Source: Synergistaceae bacterium
Lineage (GTDB): Bacteria > Synergistota > Synergistia > Synergistales > Aminobacteriaceae
Length of the DNA: 14,394 bases
NCBI GenBank assembly: GCA_017475805.1
Contig: JAFVEW010000122.1
Coordinates: 1 to 14,394 of the forward strand
Direction: 5' to 3'
The stretch's first letter is position 1; the number at the start of each line of letters is the position of its first letter. The position numbers and the translations under genes are program-made. Positions 1 through 13,779 of the stretch are shown here, piece after piece. The notes beneath the pieces were generated by a model. It saw only the letters and a program-made list of their open reading frames with translations, was not told the origin of the DNA and did not search any database.

Positions 1-75
1 AATAAATAAATTAAAAGGGATTACCTAGATGGGCTGCTTACCCACCCGGTAAAATCCCCGAACAGTGGATACGGT

Positions 76-159
76 TTATGATTTGAACGCGTGGATAAGA
101 TCCGCAATAGCTCGTATCAAGTCGGTTAAGGCTTGGACGAGTTTTATTATTCTCCTCAT
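76..159 (-). CDS. 27-aa cationic amphipathic micro-peptide, copy A
   Basis: An ATG at 159 opens a 27-codon frame ending in TAA, preceded by a strong Shine-Dalgarno (AAAGGGGGTG) about five bases upstream. After a basic start (MRRIIK) the peptide is three heptads: residues 7-13 LVQALTD, 14-20 LIRAIAD and 21-27 LIHAFKS. Hydrophobic residues at 4, 8, 11, 15, 18, 22 and 25 alternate by 4 and 3 and give one clean apolar face; net charge is about +3. I do not recognise the family. Length and character recall small membrane-active peptides such as type I toxins or delta-haemolysin-like peptides, but no homology is claimed. The copy-to-copy changes keep the heptad pattern, which supports translation. 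Its own 3' terminator and antisense promoter would lie left of the window. Confidence 0.72.
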   Translation of the reverse strand: MRRIIKLVQALTDLIRAIADLIHAFKS

Positions 160-248
160 ATTCCCACCCCCTTTCCTTTTTCAGTACTCAGAGATGAGCC
201 TCTGGTAAGTCCTCGCTCCTGTAAAAGCGAACGCCTCGCCTACAAAAT

Positions 249-257
249 ATTTTAGCA
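249..257 (-). promoter_or_regulatory. Extended -10 promoter of micro-peptide copy A
   Basis: Read on the minus strand this is TGCTAAAAT, an extended -10 with no good -35. Transcription would start near 242 and leave a leader of about 83 nt. The leader holds two small hairpins, at 214-233 and 189-204. The site overlaps the -35 of the opposite-facing promoter. Confidence 0.6.
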
Positions 258-280
258 TAGAAATTTAATCGTGATATAAT
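252..280 (+). promoter_or_regulatory. Antisense promoter between copies A and B
   Basis: TTAGCA, a 17-base spacer and a perfect TATAAT point rightward toward the 3' end of micro-peptide gene B. The -35 TTAGCA overlaps the minus-strand TGCTAA of the peptide A promoter, so the two promoters are back to back and share bases. The same arrangement recurs one repeat unit further on. Confidence 0.65.
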
Positions 281-286
281 AAAGAC

Positions 287-476
287 AGGAAAAAGAGTGC
301 GCCCCGACGAGGGAGAGCTGGACACTCTTGTTAAAAATTGGGCTGCCGAAGCTGGGCTCGTGATTCCCACCCTCGGACTTACATCCTGACGGATAGGATT
401 ACGATTTGAAAGCACGGATTAACTCCGCTAATGCTCTGATAAGCTCAGTTAAGGCTTTGACGAGCATTATTATTTT
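287..476 (+). ncRNA. Candidate antisense RNA against micro-peptide B
   Basis: Predicted from the TATAAT at 275-280. It would run through the complement of the peptide B terminator, its 3' untranslated region and nearly all of its coding sequence. A possible end is the inverted repeat AATGCTC (430-436) with GAGCATT (462-468) followed by a T-rich stretch. The 3'-overlapping convergent layout matches type I systems such as BsrG/SR4 and TxpA/RatA. Start and end are inferred, not shown. Confidence 0.42.
289..329 (-). terminator. Terminator-like hairpin of micro-peptide gene B
   Basis: On the minus strand AAGAGTG (from 329) pairs with CACTCTT (ending 293), and T residues follow. The loop contains CCTCGTC, which can pair with the GGCGAGG near the 5' end of the peptide mRNAs. 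Confidence 0.55.
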
Positions 477-482
477 CCTCAT
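399..482 (-). CDS. 27-aa cationic amphipathic micro-peptide, copy B
   Basis: ATG at 482 with Shine-Dalgarno AAGGGGGTGAG just upstream, ending in TAA after 27 codons. The peptide begins MRKIIM, followed by heptads LVKALTE (7-13), LIRALAE (14-20) and LIRAFKS (21-27); net charge is about +4. Against copy A the changes are conservative (R/K, D/E, I/L) or synonymous, the pattern expected of a translated, selected peptide. This is the only copy in the window with a complete cassette: leader, ORF, terminator and a facing antisense promoter at 252-280. Function unknown; a toxin-like or membrane-active role is an inference. Confidence 0.74.
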   Translation of the reverse strand: MRKIIMLVKALTELIRALAELIRAFKS

Positions 483-567
483 CGTTCTCACCCCCTTGTA
501 TTCAATACTCAGGGATAAGGTCCTGGCAACCTACGTTCCTATGGAAGCGAACGCCTCGCCTGAAATT

Positions 568-576
568 ATTTTAGCA
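568..576 (-). promoter_or_regulatory. Extended -10 promoter of micro-peptide copy B
   Basis: TGCTAAAAT on the minus strand, identical to the copies at 249-257 and 889-897. Predicted start near 561. The leader has hairpins at 534-553 (CGTTC with GAACG) and 510-525 (CAGG with CCTG). Confidence 0.6.
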
Positions 577-599
577 TAGAAACTTAATCGTGATATAAT
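571..599 (+). promoter_or_regulatory. Antisense promoter between copies B and C
   Basis: TTAGCA, a 17-base spacer and TATAAT, same geometry as at 252-280, directed at micro-peptide gene C. No equivalent TATAAT follows the TTAGCA at 892-897, so the array ends there. Confidence 0.65.
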
Positions 600-605
600 A
601 AAAGA

Positions 606-795
606 CAAGAAAAAAGAGTGCGCCCCGGCGAGGGAGAGCAAACGCTCTATAAAAATAAATGGGTTGCCATTGATGGGCTTCAGGAATCCACCTTTGGACT
701 TACACCCGCTAAGTGGGATTACGCTTTGAGTTCACGAATTAAATCCGTGAGAGCTCGTATAGAGTTTGTAAGGACTTGTACGAGCTTTGTGATTC
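606..795 (+). ncRNA. Candidate antisense RNA against micro-peptide C
   Basis: Predicted from the TATAAT at 594-599. It would cover the terminator, 3' region and most of the coding sequence of copy C. A possible end is the perfect 7-bp stem AGCTCGT (752-758) with ACGAGCT (780-786), though the T-tract behind it is poorer than in copies A and B. Boundaries are inferred. Confidence 0.4.
609..648 (-). terminator. Terminator-like hairpin of micro-peptide gene C
   Basis: On the minus strand an AGAGCG arm (648-643) can pair, with a small bulge, with the CACTCT arm (620-615), and six T follow. The region between contains CCTCGCC (633-627), an exact complement of the GGCGAGG in the 5' leader. Confidence 0.5.
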
Positions 796-802
796 TCTCC
801 AC
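719..802 (-). CDS. 27-aa amphipathic micro-peptide, copy C (GTG start)
   Basis: Same position and Shine-Dalgarno (AAGGGGGTGAG) as copy B, but the start codon is GTG. The peptide begins MERITK and continues with heptads LVQVLTN (7-13), SIRALTD (14-20) and LIRELKA (21-27); net charge is about +2. It is the most diverged copy: one core leucine is serine (residue 14), and an acidic residue appears at position 2. The spacing of the hydrophobic face is otherwise kept. It is first in transcription order from the right and has the only promoter not overlapped by an antisense promoter. Function unknown. Confidence 0.66.
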   Translation of the reverse strand: MERITKLVQVLTNSIRALTDLIRELKA

Positions 803-888
803 GTTCTCACCCCCTTTCCTTTTCAGTACTCAAGGATGACCCTTAGCAAATCCTCGTTCCTGTAAAAGCGAACGCCTCGCCTGAATTC

Positions 889-897
889 ATTTTAGCA
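889..897 (-). promoter_or_regulatory. Extended -10 promoter of micro-peptide copy C
   Basis: TGCTAAAAT on the minus strand. Start expected near 882. The leader hairpins are CGTTC with GAACG (855-874) and AAGG with CCTT (832-844). Confidence 0.58.
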
Positions 898-984
898 TAG
901 AATTTTGTTTTTTAGCTTTCGTGCGCGAAGGACTGAACAATAGTCGATAGATGAAAAGACCAAAAATATATTTGAATTTTTGCA

Positions 985-7544: not shown

Positions 7545-8102
7545 ATGAAAAGACTCGCTCTGAAACGAAAATTTTTATTTGCTCTGCTATTGATATTAAT
7601 CTTAGCGTATGCCGCCGAAGCTGCAACTTCAAAGGCCGATAATATCGCGAATTTATTTACGCGGGTTAATCCGTCATTGACTGCGAAAAAAGCTCAAGAT
7701 TACGCGGCTATCATCATTCAAGCTGGTGAAAAATTCAAGCAAGACCCTTATGTTATCGCGGCTTTAATCGTTCACGAATCGACAGTTAATAATAAAGCTG
7801 TATCAAAAGGCGGCGACTACGGCTTGATGCAAATCCGCTGGAAAGTTCACGCTAAGGCGATAAAGCAGAGATTTCCTAAAGTAAAGAAATCGAGCTATAT
7901 GTTTGACGCAAGGACTAATATTTTTTACGGCACTTAGATTTTCTCAGACTGATTTAAGAAAGCAGGAGGAAATTGTCAGTGCGGCGTTTCACGTTACAGC
8001 GCGGGCAACAAGAAATTAGTTAATAAAGTTACAGCTACAGTAAATGAACTAAACAACAGTGCTAAGAAAAAAGTTACGCCCAAGAACAAAAAGAAAAAAT
8101 AA
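7545..8102 (+). pseudogene. Lytic transglycosylase (SLT domain) interrupted by TAG and TGA
   Basis: A secreted peptidoglycan-cleaving enzyme by family. A signal peptide (1-26) precedes an SLT domain with catalytic Glu78 in LIVHEST, then GGDYGLMQI (89-97), then DARTNIFYGT (121-130). After this comes TAG (7935-7937), four codons (IFSD), and TGA (7950-7952). The same frame then continues with FKKAGGN, GVSRYSAGNKKLV and a lysine-rich end, stopping at TAA 8100-8102. Homologues usually read YGTK...LxxAGGN...RYSGGN here, so the sequence beyond the stops is the true C-terminus and no frameshift occurred. Each stop is one substitution from a plausible codon (AAG or AAA; TGC or TGT). TAG and TGA end other genes in the window, so the code is not altered. 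As read, the product is a 130-residue protein lacking the end of the fold, probably inactive. Confidence 0.8.
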
Positions 8103-9903: not shown

Positions 9904-11169
9904 ATGCGTAATTATCTTGATGTTCTCCAAAAAATCGAAGAAACAAAAGCAAAGGCTTGGCTCGTCGGCGATACAGTCCGAATGATTCAAATGGGTATTC
10001 AGCCCGAATTAATCACGCTTGCAATCGATTCTGACGATATGTATAGCGTAGCTCTCGCGCTTGGTACAGGAACGGTCGATGCAAGAGGTCCTTATCCGGC
10101 CTTGCGCGGTGAACTTTTAGGCGTTCCGTTCAGAGCTTTTAGTCTTAGAGGCGCGACAATCGAGGACGATTTAGCCTGCAGAGATTTAAGCATTGAAGCT
10201 ATTGCAATTCGCAGCGACGGCGGTATTGTTGACCCGTTCGGCGGACGTTTTGACATTCGTAACAGAGTAATAAGACTGACGGGCGATAATGTTGACCTAA
10301 TCAACGATGACCCATTAAGAATCTTGCGAATGTTGAGATTTTCAGCCGAGTTAGAAATGGATATTTTCTGGAAAACTCAAAGCGACGTCCGAGAATTTTT
10401 ATCTGAACATGCTGAAAGAATGTCTGAAATCCCTGCTGAACGCTGGGGACGCGAAATTATGAAAGGCATAACCCGAAGGCCATACAAATTTATTAGGCTT
10501 TGTGACTCTTACCATTTAATTCCGTTCTTCCTGAAAGAATTAGAAGACCTTAAGAGCGACAAAAGACTCTATGAACATGTTTTGAAGGTCTTAGGCGTCA
10601 TTGAAAACAAACTCGATACTACTAAAATTATGCAGAGCGACGCATTTGTATTAGCCGGGCTTCTTGGTAATATCGGCACAAAAACTTTAGACGGCCGCGA
10701 CAGAAATAAATTCACGGACAGGCTCGTTAATGAATATCTAACGCGCTGGAATGTCAATTCAGGAACTATTGATGAGGTTATTGCAATCATCAATCGCTAC
10801 AAAGATTTTTACAAACCCGTTACCGAGTTAGAATTTTGCAGAGACGTCCTTGAATATTCGGAAGAGGCTATAGAAGTTGCGTTAGAGTTCGCTAAATGCG
10901 TTGTCGAATCGGAAAACAAGGTCGAAAAATACAGCGAAGTTCTTGAAGATAACACTTGGAATTTGAATCAAGTCTTGAGACGCTTTAATAACGTCAGACT
11001 TCAAACCGAAGGCTCAGATCGTTACATGACAGGCCGCGAAGTCATGGCTCTTTTGAACATGAAGCCGGGCCGCCGCGTCGGTGAGTTGTTAGAAGGACTC
11101 GACTTAGCAGTTGGAACAGGAAAAGTCAGCAATCGCGCAGGAGCAGAGGCTTGGTTGAAAGCACAATAG
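9904..11169 (+). CDS. CCA-adding enzyme/poly(A) polymerase homologue lacking the catalytic DxD
   Basis: A class II tRNA nucleotidyltransferase/poly(A) polymerase fold by sequence: a head domain, then DPFGGRFDIRNRVIRLTGD (about 113-131), NDDPLRILRMLRF (about 135-147) and AERWGREI (about 179-186), with an alpha-helical body to 421. Canonical members have VGGAVRDLLLG....DIDxAT at the start. Here the aligned segment (21-42) reads VGDTVRMIQMG then IQPELITLAID: the two metal-binding aspartates are Leu36 and Thr38, and the GG and RD of the flexible loop are altered. The third carboxylate survives (Asp94 in CRDLSIEA), but the usual RRDFTINA is degraded. The frame is intact and of normal length, so this is a maintained protein, probably without nucleotidyl transfer activity; an RNA-binding or regulatory role is a guess. 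Good Shine-Dalgarno AAAGGAG. Overlaps mnmE by 19 bases. Confidence 0.85.
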   Translation: MRNYLDVLQKIEETKAKAWLVGDTVRMIQMGIQPELITLAIDSDDMYSVALALGTGTVDARGPYPALRGELLGVPFRAFSLRGATIEDDLACRDLSIEAIAIRSDGGIVDPFGGRFDIRNRVIRLTGDNVDLINDDPLRILRMLRFSAELEMDIFWKTQSDVREFLSEHAERMSEIPAERWGREIMKGITRRPYKFIRLCDSYHLIPFFLKELEDLKSDKRLYEHVLKVLGVIENKLDTTKIMQSDAFVLAGLLGNIGTKTLDGRDRNKFTDRLVNEYLTRWNVNSGTIDEVIAIINRYKDFYKPVTELEFCRDVLEYSEEAIEVALEFAKCVVESENKVEKYSEVLEDNTWNLNQVLRRFNNVRLQTEGSDRYMTGREVMALLNMKPGRRVGELLEGLDLAVGTGKVSNRAGAEAWLKAQ

Positions 11170-12466
11170 CAGCAATTTCGACGGCACTCGGCGAGGGAGG
11201 CATAGCGATAATCAGGGTCTCCGGTGCTGAGGCCGTCAATATTTCTACAAAAATTTTGATATTCCTGGCAAGCTATATTTAACAAATTTAATAGACGATG
11301 ACGGGAATATTTTAGACCGCGTCTTAGCCGTTCATTTCGCAGGGCCTAAAAGCTATACTGGCGAAGATATTTTTGAAATTCATACTCACGGCGGAATTTT
11401 TATAGCGCGCTTATGCCTTGAACTTTTGATTAAAAACGGTGCGGAATTAGCTCAACCCGGCGAATTTACACGCAGAGCATTTGCAAACGGACGGATCGAT
11501 TTATCACAGGCCGAAGGAGTTTTAGGAATAATAAAAGCTCAAAGCCTCGAAGCCCTCAAAGCATCAGCAAGGACTTTAAGCGGCGGACTTTCTGAGAAAA
11601 TCCAAGAAATTCACGCGAAAATCTTAAACGTTCAGGCTAATTTTGAAATTAATTTAGATTTCCCGGAAGGCGAAATTTTTAACTCAAACTTCAACGCGGC
11701 GAGCGAAATTTCAAAAATTAAGGACGAACTTGAAAATCTTTTGTCGCGCTGTGAAGCAGGAATGATTTTTAATAACGGCGTCAAAATCACAATCGCAGGC
11801 CGTCCTAACGTTGGTAAATCTTCGCTGCTGAATGCAATTTTAGAGAAAAATCGAGCAATCGTTACAGAAATTCCAGGCACTACTCGCGATATTATCAGCG
11901 AAAAAATTTTGATTAATTCTCTGCCTGTGATTCTTTCAGACACTGCGGGACTTCGCGACACTGAAAATATTATCGAGGCCGAAGGAATTAAACTCGCTAT
12001 GACATCAGCGAATGAAAGTGATTTATGTTTGTTTGTAATCGACGGCTCGGAAAAAATTTCAGATAATGAATTAAATTTTATAAATTCGCTTGACGATCGC
12101 GTTATCGTTGTAATTAATAAATCGGACTTAAAACAGGCTCAAGATTTTAATTTTGCGTCTCAGGTTCATGTCTCTGCAAAAAATCAAACGGGCATTGAAG
12201 AATTAAAATCAGCTATTTTCAACAAAGCTATAAAAAATCCGTCTTTAGACGGCGAACTTAACGCTTCAGCGGCACAACTTAAGGACATTCGCGAGAGTCT
12301 TGAACTCATAAGCGATGCCTACGAACTCGCAAGCAAGGACTCAGAGCCTGACATTATAGCGGGTTTACTTAATGACGCGAGAGTAACTTTAATGCGCGTG
12401 CTTGGCTTGGACGTTGGCGACGAACTTTTAGATTTTATGTTTAATCGATTCTGCGTTGGTAAATAA
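11151..12466 (+). pseudogene. mnmE: tRNA modification GTPase MnmE with a one-base frameshift
   Basis: MnmE, with MnmG, installs the cmnm5 group on wobble uridine of certain tRNAs. The likely start is TTG 11151, seven bases after AGGAG and inside the end of the previous gene; it gives MVESTIAAISTALGEGGIAI, a typical N-terminus. The frame hits TAA at 11280-11282 after 43 codons. One extra base in the A5T4 run at 11249-11257 would restore TKIFDIPGKLYLTN and continue through SYTGEDIFEIHTHGG, the formate/THF-binding region, the G domain (GRPNVGKS near 11798-11821, DTAGLRDT near 11939-11962, NKSD near 12116-12127) and the conserved C-terminal FCVGK with its cysteine. Everything else is intact, so the loss is very recent or the lesion is a homopolymer sequencing error. 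As read, only an N-terminally truncated product could be made. Confidence 0.88.
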
Positions 12467-12723: not shown

Positions 12724-13779
12724 TTACTGTTTTATCATCGTGTATTCAGCAACATAATCATAATATTCATCTTCAACCATCAAGCTCCCTGTTTCTCTTA
12801 CCTCTGCTGTTGTCGCCGAAGTAACTGTTATGGTAACGTTCCCCTCCGTGAGACTGCTATCACTGTCGGGAAACGTGGCTTTCCAAGTGTCGCTTCCAAT
12901 ATTTGTAAGTTTTATGGATTTGTCGATATCAGGTATAAACAGCAGTCTTCTAACGAAATAGCCATCTTGATAGACATACCATACGCGATACTGCGAAAAG
13001 GTGGCTGTCCCTGAGGTGTCAAATTCTCCTAAAATTGCGCGATGATCAATCGTAAATGAATAAGTTCCTGTTAAACCTGTCCCCGTTCCTGAACCGCTTG
13101 AGGCTACCCATGTTCCTGATAGTTGGTCTAAGCTATATGTATTCTGCGTTTCATTATTGTTAGTTGCTTTTGAAAGTGTGTATTGAGCAGAATAGTCATA
13201 TGGCACGCCATCAACGTATGCAGTTCCCGATTCGTTCACGCTCGCTGTCGTAGTTGAAGTAAGAGTAATTTTGAACACCCGATTATCATTGCCGTAGGAA
13301 AAAACAAGCCGCCAAGTATCAGTTCCAGCTTTTACAAGAGTTATCAGCTCGTCGTCAGATCTAAATGATACAGTCGTAACGTAGCTGCCATTCTGATAAG
13401 CGTCCACGTCTTCACAAGCTGTCAGAACAGTCATTCCGTCATCATCAAATTCTCCGAGTGTTGCACGTACTCCAATATTTAGTGAATAAGTACCGCTTGC
13501 GCCCGTTGCTGTTCCCGAGACATTTGAAACGTACCACGTTCCCGTCAATTGATTTAAGCTATATGTGTCTTGCACATCCATATATGGTGTTGTGTAATCT
13601 TCTTCCTGATTAACTTCGTCACTCGTATCATTATCGTTGTCATCCACTATATCATTAGTTGTTTGTGAAGCTGTTTTGTTATTGTATTGCTTCGGATCAT
13701 CATTACATCCCCCTGAAACAACCGCTAAAAACATTAAAACAACTAAAACCCAACACAGATTTTTCTTAGCAATCATCAT
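12724..13779 (-). CDS. Putative lipoprotein with two tandem lipocalin-like beta domains
   Basis: A 351-residue exported protein I cannot name. The N-terminus is a basic start, a hydrophobic core and VVSGGC with Cys25 as the probable lipidated residue; the box is a little unusual (Ser-Gly-Gly before Cys). An Asp/Asn/Thr-rich linker (26-70) follows, then two copies of a domain of about 135 residues. They begin TYSLNQLTGTW (72-82) and TYSLDQLSGTW (214-224), continue with GTYSxxI, a hydrophobic R-A-x-LGEFD, then SDTWK or TDTWR and TxTTAxVxExG, and end DYxAxYT. The L-x-G-x-W opening and beta-rich pattern suggest a lipocalin-like barrel, an inference. The domains have diverged considerably, so the duplication is old. 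Its promoter has a G9 tract in the spacer, pointing to phase-variable expression. It stands alone, with its own terminator. Confidence 0.82.
   Translation of the reverse strand: MMIAKKNLCWVLVVLMFLAVVSGGCNDDPKQYNNKTASQTTNDIVDDNDNDTSDEVNQEEDYTTPYMDVQDTYSLNQLTGTWYVSNVSGTATGASGTYSLNIGVRATLGEFDDDGMTVLTACEDVDAYQNGSYVTTVSFRSDDELITLVKAGTDTWRLVFSYGNDNRVFKITLTSTTTASVNESGTAYVDGVPYDYSAQYTLSKATNNNETQNTYSLDQLSGTWVASSGSGTGTGLTGTYSFTIDHRAILGEFDTSGTATFSQYRVWYVYQDGYFVRRLLFIPDIDKSIKLTNIGSDTWKATFPDSDSSLTEGNVTITVTSATTAEVRETGSLMVEDEYYDYVAEYTMIKQ

Follow-up and report, generated by a model that had tools for sequence, protein, structure and literature searches.

The left end of a 14,394-nucleotide contig from a Synergistaceae bacterium (GenBank assembly GCA_017475805.1, contig JAFVEW010000122.1; the whole stretch is called the window here) carries, on the minus strand of positions 1-904, three diverged tandem units of about 320 nucleotides each, which we analysed as a candidate type I toxin-antitoxin family. 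Spaced 323 and 320 nucleotides apart, the units each consist of an extended −10 element, a structured leader of about 80 nucleotides, a GGGGGTG Shine-Dalgarno (SD) sequence and an open reading frame (ORF) of 27 codons, and the arrangement described in an earlier note on this DNA, three diverged tandem units with a 27-residue peptide, a strong SD and an extended −10 of their own, could be located part by part (Table 1). Among the three peptides 12 of the 27 positions are invariant, with identities of 74% and 59% to the first. Intrinsic terminators were found inside the window for units 2 and 3, unit 1 being truncated by the left window end. On the opposite strand, TTAGCA and TATAAT separated by 17 nucleotides, with a TG preceding the −10, occur twice. 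The earlier note had placed such a promoter between units, which stands for units 2 and 3, while that of unit 1 would fall off the window.

Table 1. Features of the three tandem units, by window position
Unit	Feature	Position	Strand	Basis
3	Sense promoter, extended −10 TATGCTAAAAT	889-899	−	Sequence; similar in relatives
3	5' address of mRNA, GGCGAGG; partner is loop 633-627	875-881	−	5'-3' pairing test
3	Predicted anti-SD, UCCUU	832-836	−	Fold; coordinates hand-counted from leader
3	SD, AAAGGGGGTG	808-817	−	Sequence
3	Peptide, GTG start, 27 residues	719-802	−	ORF; pN/pS in family
3	Intrinsic terminator, loop CCTCGCC at 633-627	615-648	−	Terminator scan; pairing test
3	Candidate antisense promoter TTAGCA-17-TATAAT; probable RNA start near 606	571-599	+	Scan; relatives
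3	Predicted antisense terminator, hairpin 751-787 and weak T-rich tail, within peptide ORF	751-796	+	Relatives
2	Sense promoter, extended −10 TATGCTAAAAT	568-578	−	Sequence
2	5' address of mRNA, GGCGAGG; partner is loop 312-306	554-560	−	5'-3' pairing test
2	SD, CAAGGGGGTG, occlusion predicted	489-498	−	Sequence; fold
2	Peptide, 27 residues from ATG 482 or 30 residues from upstream GTG 491	399-491	−	ORF; pN/pS; helix model of 30-residue form
2	Intrinsic terminator, loop CCTCGTC at 312-306	293-329	−	Terminator scan; pairing test
2	Candidate antisense promoter TTAGCA-17-TATAAT; probable RNA start near 287	252-280	+	Scan; relatives
2	Predicted antisense terminator, hairpin 429-469 and T-rich tail, within peptide ORF	429-478	+	Relatives
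1	Sense promoter, extended −10 TATGCTAAAAT	249-259	−	Sequence
1	5' address of mRNA, GGCGAGG; partner beyond window	234-240	−	Sequence
1	SD, AAAGGGGGTG	165-174	−	Sequence
1	Peptide, ATG start, 27 residues	76-159	−	ORF
1	3' untranslated region, clipped by window end; terminator not found within	1-75	−	Terminator scan
1	Predicted antisense terminator, hairpin 110-141 and T-rich tail; promoter would fall off window	110-152	+	Gapped-match check

With the three window peptides as queries, 15 of 20 genomes gave matches at E ≤ 1, nine of these below 1e-4. A profile of 36 peptides matched 51 of the 81 genomes of one Synergistota family at E ≤ 0.01, with up to 14 copies per genome, and all 47 genomes matched at E ≤ 1e-4 among 185 Synergistota genomes belong to those 81. 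The search of Synergistota genomes suggested by the earlier note has brought out a peptide family, and restriction to one Synergistota family, a little-studied group of gut bacteria, is the best reading of these matches. A DNA pattern of the window leader gave no match in genome contigs and none in viral contigs, whereas the peptide profile reached further; in viral contigs with a peptide alignment, none of six pattern stretches was confirmed. The comparisons below draw on a profile search of 113 loci plus the window (1.04 Mb), which returned 131 matches in 129 ORFs. For the 5'-3' pairing test, 28 rows without a −10 in the range of 135-245 nucleotides and eight without a terminator (including window unit 1) were dropped, leaving 93 copies; the antisense-promoter test used the 81 of these with a pairing score of at least 17, and the SD test the 80 of those with a recognised SD. 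For the selection and antisense-terminator tests, the 131 were reduced by 22 gapped matches, one of which is window unit 1, and by 19 whose E exceeded 1e-6, and removal of stretches with a stop (four listed) and of identical cores left 85 cores in each set. Window unit 1 is not among the rows of the selection, pairing, antisense-promoter or 85-core terminator tests.

In the peptide frame, the ratio of nonsynonymous to synonymous change (pN/pS) rose from 0.31 among pairs of cores with 1-9 differences to 0.38 at 10-15 and 0.42 at 16-21, and reached about 0.5 in the most distant pairs (85 distinct cores); entropy at the three codon positions of the same cores was 1.08, 0.58 and 1.51. The other five frames gave values from 0.56 to 2.4. 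The synonymous versus nonsynonymous comparison that had been proposed for this DNA therefore came out well below 1 in the ORF frame, and a few copies contain heptad insertions that preserve the frame. By these sequence measures, the peptide ORF is under protein-level selection. The earlier statement that the amino acids are kept while the DNA changes holds for the family by pN/pS, with the correction that constraint at the RNA level also acts on the leader and on parts of the ORF. Decay is also seen: at least three matches carry an in-frame stop among the matches listed, and some copies lack a leader. As a separate observation, short TTAGGAGTTAGGAGTGAGGAG-like intergenic repeats, possibly dispersed, lie at 2320-2350 of the window, and in locus L067 one of them is found upstream of the copy, at the point where the leader of the peptide gene is missing.

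The first seven or so nucleotides of the mRNA, its 5' address, are complementary to the loop of the same copy's terminator; in class C copies this address lies about 35 nucleotides in, behind an extra 5' hairpin. Over the 93 copies the score for pairing with their own terminator was 17.9, as against 13.69 in 2000 permutations (standard deviation 0.30, maximum 14.68) and 14.5 for reversed leaders. A redundancy-reduced test with 48 cluster representatives plus 12 low scorers gave 17.5 versus 13.68 (standard deviation 0.37, maximum 15.2 of 5000), and at least seven contiguous 5'-3' pairs are present in at least 80 of the 93 copies. Counted over the 81 best copies there are 32 motif pairs, some of which differ by wobble or length alone; examples are GGCGAGG with CCTCGCC, GGGAAGC with GCTTCCC, GGGGATTT with AGATCCCC, and GGATGAC with GTCATCC. 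These results support covariation of the mRNA 5' end with its own terminator loop. When three subgroups of 15, 19 and 15 sequences were given a consensus fold by RNAalifold, the 5'-3' helix came out as the outermost in each, which serves as an illustration rather than an independent test because the subgroups were picked by 5' motif from high scorers. The SD, for its part, had a mean unpaired probability of 0.157 versus 0.372 in shuffled surroundings, was less accessible than its shuffles in 74 of 80 copies, and was predicted to pair with an upstream segment in 69 of 80; it is thus predicted by folding to be held closed by an upstream anti-SD. A translationally closed toxin mRNA, which is frequent and not universal in type I systems, is accordingly found here by prediction and by covariation.

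Past the sense terminator, an exact TATAAT stands on the antisense strand at a distance of 2-25 nucleotides in 76 of the 81 copies, and four of the remaining five have TAAAAT as antisense −10. By contrast, an exact TATAAT within 45 nucleotides occurs at 2 of 174 other hairpin-plus-T terminators from the same loci (Fisher p = 5e-56). Dinucleotide shuffles gave a mean of 7.7 and a maximum of 16 (500 shuffles); they replaced a cruder dinucleotide shuffle that mixed poorly and retained the motif (mean 39.9, maximum 53 of 81). The exact box is present in 46 of the 48 cluster representatives. Sense −10 boxes among the 81 copies read TAAAAT in 39, TAGAAT in 30, TATAAT in 10 and TACAAT in 2; given that the search pattern fixed most letters of this box, its weaker sequence was not used as a sign of antitoxin excess. 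The relatives therefore back the candidate promoter that the earlier note saw driving RNA into the 3' end of the peptide gene, and a cis-encoded antisense RNA gene, as type I systems possess, appears in the sequence of the family, class C being mostly without its terminator.

That terminator is predicted on the antisense strand of the ORF itself, where a hairpin followed by a T-rich run corresponds to the codons around IIKLV...LIRA read backwards. Of 85 cores, 70 have the hairpin; synonymous shuffles gave it in 28.7 (maximum 33) when drawn with the codon usage of the genome and in 53.3 (maximum 65) with that of the family, and the mean score of 19.0 in the real cores compares with 3.8 and 7.7, respectively (30 shuffles each). 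Among gapped matches outside the 85, it was found in 21 of 22, window unit 1 included, a count made without shuffle control. These sequence comparisons support independent selection of an antisense terminator within the ORF, and the predicted antisense RNAs of the window would run from about 287 to 478 and from about 606 to 796.

The sense product is predicted to be a cationic amphipathic helix of membrane-active appearance. AlphaFold, run on a single sequence, modelled the 30-residue form of unit 2 as one helix spanning residues 2-29 (pLDDT 96); over 36 peptides the hydrophobic moment averaged 0.52 versus 0.22 when shuffled, with net charges of +1 to +6. The peptides are 26-38 residues long and nearly devoid of Cys, Gly and Pro (3, 1 and 2 of 1096 residues). 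Some arrays and single sites, at loci L047, L048, L069 and L155, also hold a diverged second type of peptide with a core resembling KLLWALTALTAAIAELIRVIKM, in the first three beside the canonical type; it keeps the antisense hairpin with other stem letters, and the two types together could point to two-peptide action.

Database searches with the 36 peptides gave five weak matches in each of Pfam and NCBIfam, which presumably hold models of Hok, Ldr, Fst and similar type I toxins; none was to a type I toxin family and none reached the curated cut-off. The best E values (0.0029 in Pfam, 0.0049 in NCBIfam and 0.013 in PHROGs) were read as chance, as was phrog_1263 (function unknown), which touched 8 of the 36 peptides weakly, and the peptides had no match in PDB. 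Rfam gave no match at gathering threshold over the whole window, and a NEAT1_2 match at relaxed threshold (E 4.8, within 1-1040) was rejected as chance. A literature search found no report of a type I toxin-antitoxin system for Synergistetes or Synergistota. As put in PMC12390103 (2025), type I systems had before the cyanobacterial case been known only from Proteobacteria, Firmicutes and Tenericutes, a narrow range that the same paper attributes to similarity-based search methods. The earlier impression that the peptide matches no known type I toxin agrees with the lack of any convincing match in Pfam, NCBIfam, PHROGs and PDB.

Among known systems, the genes of the Bacillus subtilis pairs txpA/RatA, bsrG/SR4 and bsrE/SR5 are convergent, the Helicobacter antisense RNA covers the 5' part of its target, and the hok mRNA folds back on itself. 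According to PMC6562991, the antisense RNAs of the three Bacillus pairs have 100-140 bp of complementarity to the toxin mRNA, on its 3' side, and the antisense RNA predicted here likewise lies over the toxin mRNA 3' side. Unlike in those pairs, to which no sequence relation was found, the peptide here is an amphipathic one of 26-38 residues from another phylum, the antisense terminator lies within the ORF, and copies are many, both tandem and dispersed. For aapA/IsoA of Helicobacter, the account in PMC6733600 gives several chromosomal copies, a 5'-3' long-distance interaction, SD occlusion and a coding sequence constrained by the mRNA fold, each of which has its likeness in the present family; the anti-SD in that account is at the 3' end, whereas the one predicted here is local and the terminator loop has the very first nucleotides of the mRNA as its partner. 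Fold-back of the hok mRNA was found through coupled covariation (Gultyaev 1997, as cited in PMC6733600), much as the closure here was seen by covariation; here, unlike in hok/Sok, the antisense is at the 3' side and the peptide is unrelated, and a leader ORF was neither sought nor noticed. TisB is described in PMC8309996 as a 29-residue helix with a charged strip and membrane action whose mRNA has an inhibitory 5' untranslated region, and a short helix with a charged strip and an inhibitory leader are predicted here too. IstR-1, by contrast, is encoded apart from tisB, whereas a predicted antisense gene lies opposite nearly every tested copy of this family. In geometry the units come closest to RatA and SR4, and in their folded mRNA to AapA and Hok.

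Taken together, we read each unit as a self-contained type I toxin-antitoxin-like module, a self-toxin with an RNA antidote, and put the probability of this sequence-based reading at roughly 0.7. The type I architecture suggested by the earlier note has in its favour, throughout the main body of the family, ORF selection, antisense promoter, antisense terminator, predicted SD occlusion and 5'-3' covariation. A short sense mRNA would encode a cationic amphipathic helix that acts on the cell's own membrane. The full-length mRNA would be inert, with its SD paired to the upstream anti-SD and its 5' end paired to its own terminator loop. An antisense RNA of about 190 nucleotides in the window would start from the promoter past the sense terminator, pass through the terminator, the 3' untranslated region and most of the ORF, and stop at a terminator that the peptide codons contain. 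By binding the 3' half of the mRNA, this RNA would lead to cleavage of the duplex, as described for RatA or SR5 in PMC6562991, probably by RNase III. Because the mRNA 5' end and the first hairpin loop of the antisense RNA share one sequence, contact probably begins at the terminator loop as a kissing start, and this loop may be the site of a contest between mRNA self-closure and antisense binding. We infer for this scheme that both RNAs are made, that the mRNA is stable and the peptide harmful, and that the antisense RNA neutralises by pairing at the 3' side. Slightly better than even, in our judgement, are the chances that these units form a new type I family, the first from Synergistota to judge by our literature search, whose RNA logic has no counterpart that we know of: an address of 7-8 nucleotides common to the mRNA 5' end and the first loop of the antisense RNA, both complementary to the toxin terminator loop, so that self-closure and antisense binding compete, together with an antitoxin terminator placed in the toxin codons.

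Several results weigh against the toxin-antitoxin reading. A promoter scan of the window alone found three promoters versus 1.9 ± 1.3 in shuffles, which is near chance, so that support for the antisense promoter must come from the relatives, and there a box with five of six −10 letters is common in the background (39 of 174 terminators versus 81 of 81 family copies), leaving sharp discrimination to the exact TATAAT alone. In the pairing test, 12 of the 93 copies scored under 17. Removing the terminator left the predicted SD access unchanged (0.151 versus 0.158), which gives no support for gating of translation by the 5'-3' helix in a pseudoknot-free folding that cannot model such a pseudoknot. 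A second switch, in which an upstream stretch of the nascent RNA would hold the anti-SD, was tried and set aside, at 0.286 versus 0.326 and in 43 of 69 copies being not clearly above control in a test with some malformed rows. Thirteen of the 15 cores without the antisense hairpin belong to class C, the other two being in L124 and L069; no convincing alternative antisense terminator was seen in the class C leader, and leader plus ORF scored 13.0 versus 9.8 in shuffles over 21 copies with the address at least 20 nucleotides in. The pN/pS of 0.56, which belongs to one antisense frame, makes the contrast between frames not clean, though it is expected if both strands are constrained. As for the peptides, the hydrophobic moment exceeded shuffles at p < 0.01 in just 20 of 36, and their hydrophobicity is moderate (mean 0.10, 36 peptides), more interfacial than that of the transmembrane helices as which type I toxins are described in PMC8309996.

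We give next to no credence to the idea that the plus-strand TATAAT is there by chance or as part of the sense U-tract, with no antisense RNA made: the near-chance scan of the window speaks for it, and it has to contend with the excess of exact boxes over the other terminators of the same loci and with an antisense terminator that appears independently selected. Very improbable as well is a structured regulatory RNA as the active product, with the peptide as by-product, since strong conservation of RNA structure, partly within the ORF, is met by a codon-position pattern, by a pN/pS far under 1, by heptads inserted without loss of frame and by the strong SD that precedes the ORF.

A peptide that is made may still have another role. 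The cationic amphipathic helix, its length and its near lack of Cys, Gly and Pro, together with many diverged copies per genome, would suit a peptide that is secreted to lyse or signal to other cells, in the manner of leaderless bacteriocins or phenol-soluble modulins, its dose being tuned by an antisense RNA, and one of the 36 peptides touches the NCBIfam PSM-alpha model (E 0.024), short of membership among the phenol-soluble modulins. We consider this unlikely, given that, in the two closest ORFs of at least 90 residues to either side of the copies, no gene for a partner, a transporter or immunity turns up repeatedly across classes, and that an antisense gene at nearly every copy better fits self-toxicity. 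A little less probable to us is a small protein that is not toxic and serves at the membrane or in regulation, with an antisense RNA controlling it; a helix that is induced by stress and binds membranes would be one example. Conserved chromosomal places suggest a lasting use to the host, and phage and plasmid records gave no match to one 27-residue query peptide; layered silencing by occluded SD, 5'-3' closure and antisense RNA, on the other hand, exceeds what a harmless peptide would need, and copy number is variable with some copies broken.

The conserved places are of two kinds. A CDC48-type AAA ATPase gene follows class C copies in 14 loci (L072, L073, L114, L116, L120, L122, L125, L128, L130, L135, L154, L160, L161 and L163), where two peptide types sometimes stand in tandem, while class D arrays adjoin a flagellin gene in 13 (L104, L113, L115, L117, L121, L123, L124, L126, L132, L134, L137, L141 and L151); the opposite flank holds a PTS sugar transporter in eight of these. 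The flagellin-side arrays hold one to four peptide matches, some partial, which amounts to natural copy-number variation at a recurrent locus. An S-layer-homology gene lies near copies in four loci. Neighbour names were confirmed by Pfam in two examples each, and the 295 flank ORFs fall into 193 clusters. In the window, the neighbouring glutamate dehydrogenase used as query returned 25 Synergistota loci, the nearest (94%) from an uncultured Fretibacterium; no peptide copy was found in the flanks of these 25, short in several, so that the site itself seems variable. Elsewhere in the window, mnmE (11085-12466, plus strand) is apparently split over two frames near 11231-11282 into an N-terminal part and the rest, by a frameshift or an assembly error; a Transglycosylase SLT ORF (7545-8102, plus strand) stops early (profile positions 3-73 of 117), with further open stretches in other frames behind it; and a predicted protein of 351 residues (12724-13779, minus strand) has two similar-looking halves and no Pfam match at E ≤ 0.001.

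If the toxin-antitoxin reading is right, the presence in Synergistota of so dense a family, with its many copies, would indicate how much escapes current searches, and its features offer a search recipe: a tiny ORF that contains an antisense terminator, a −10 on the antisense strand past the sense terminator, and a 5' end that matches the terminator loop. The family would also provide many natural variants of one RNA mechanism, suited to compensatory-mutation tests, and a case of opposite-strand RNA signals selected inside a coding sequence, in which the needs of the RNA would have shaped the codons of the toxin and perhaps its amino acids.

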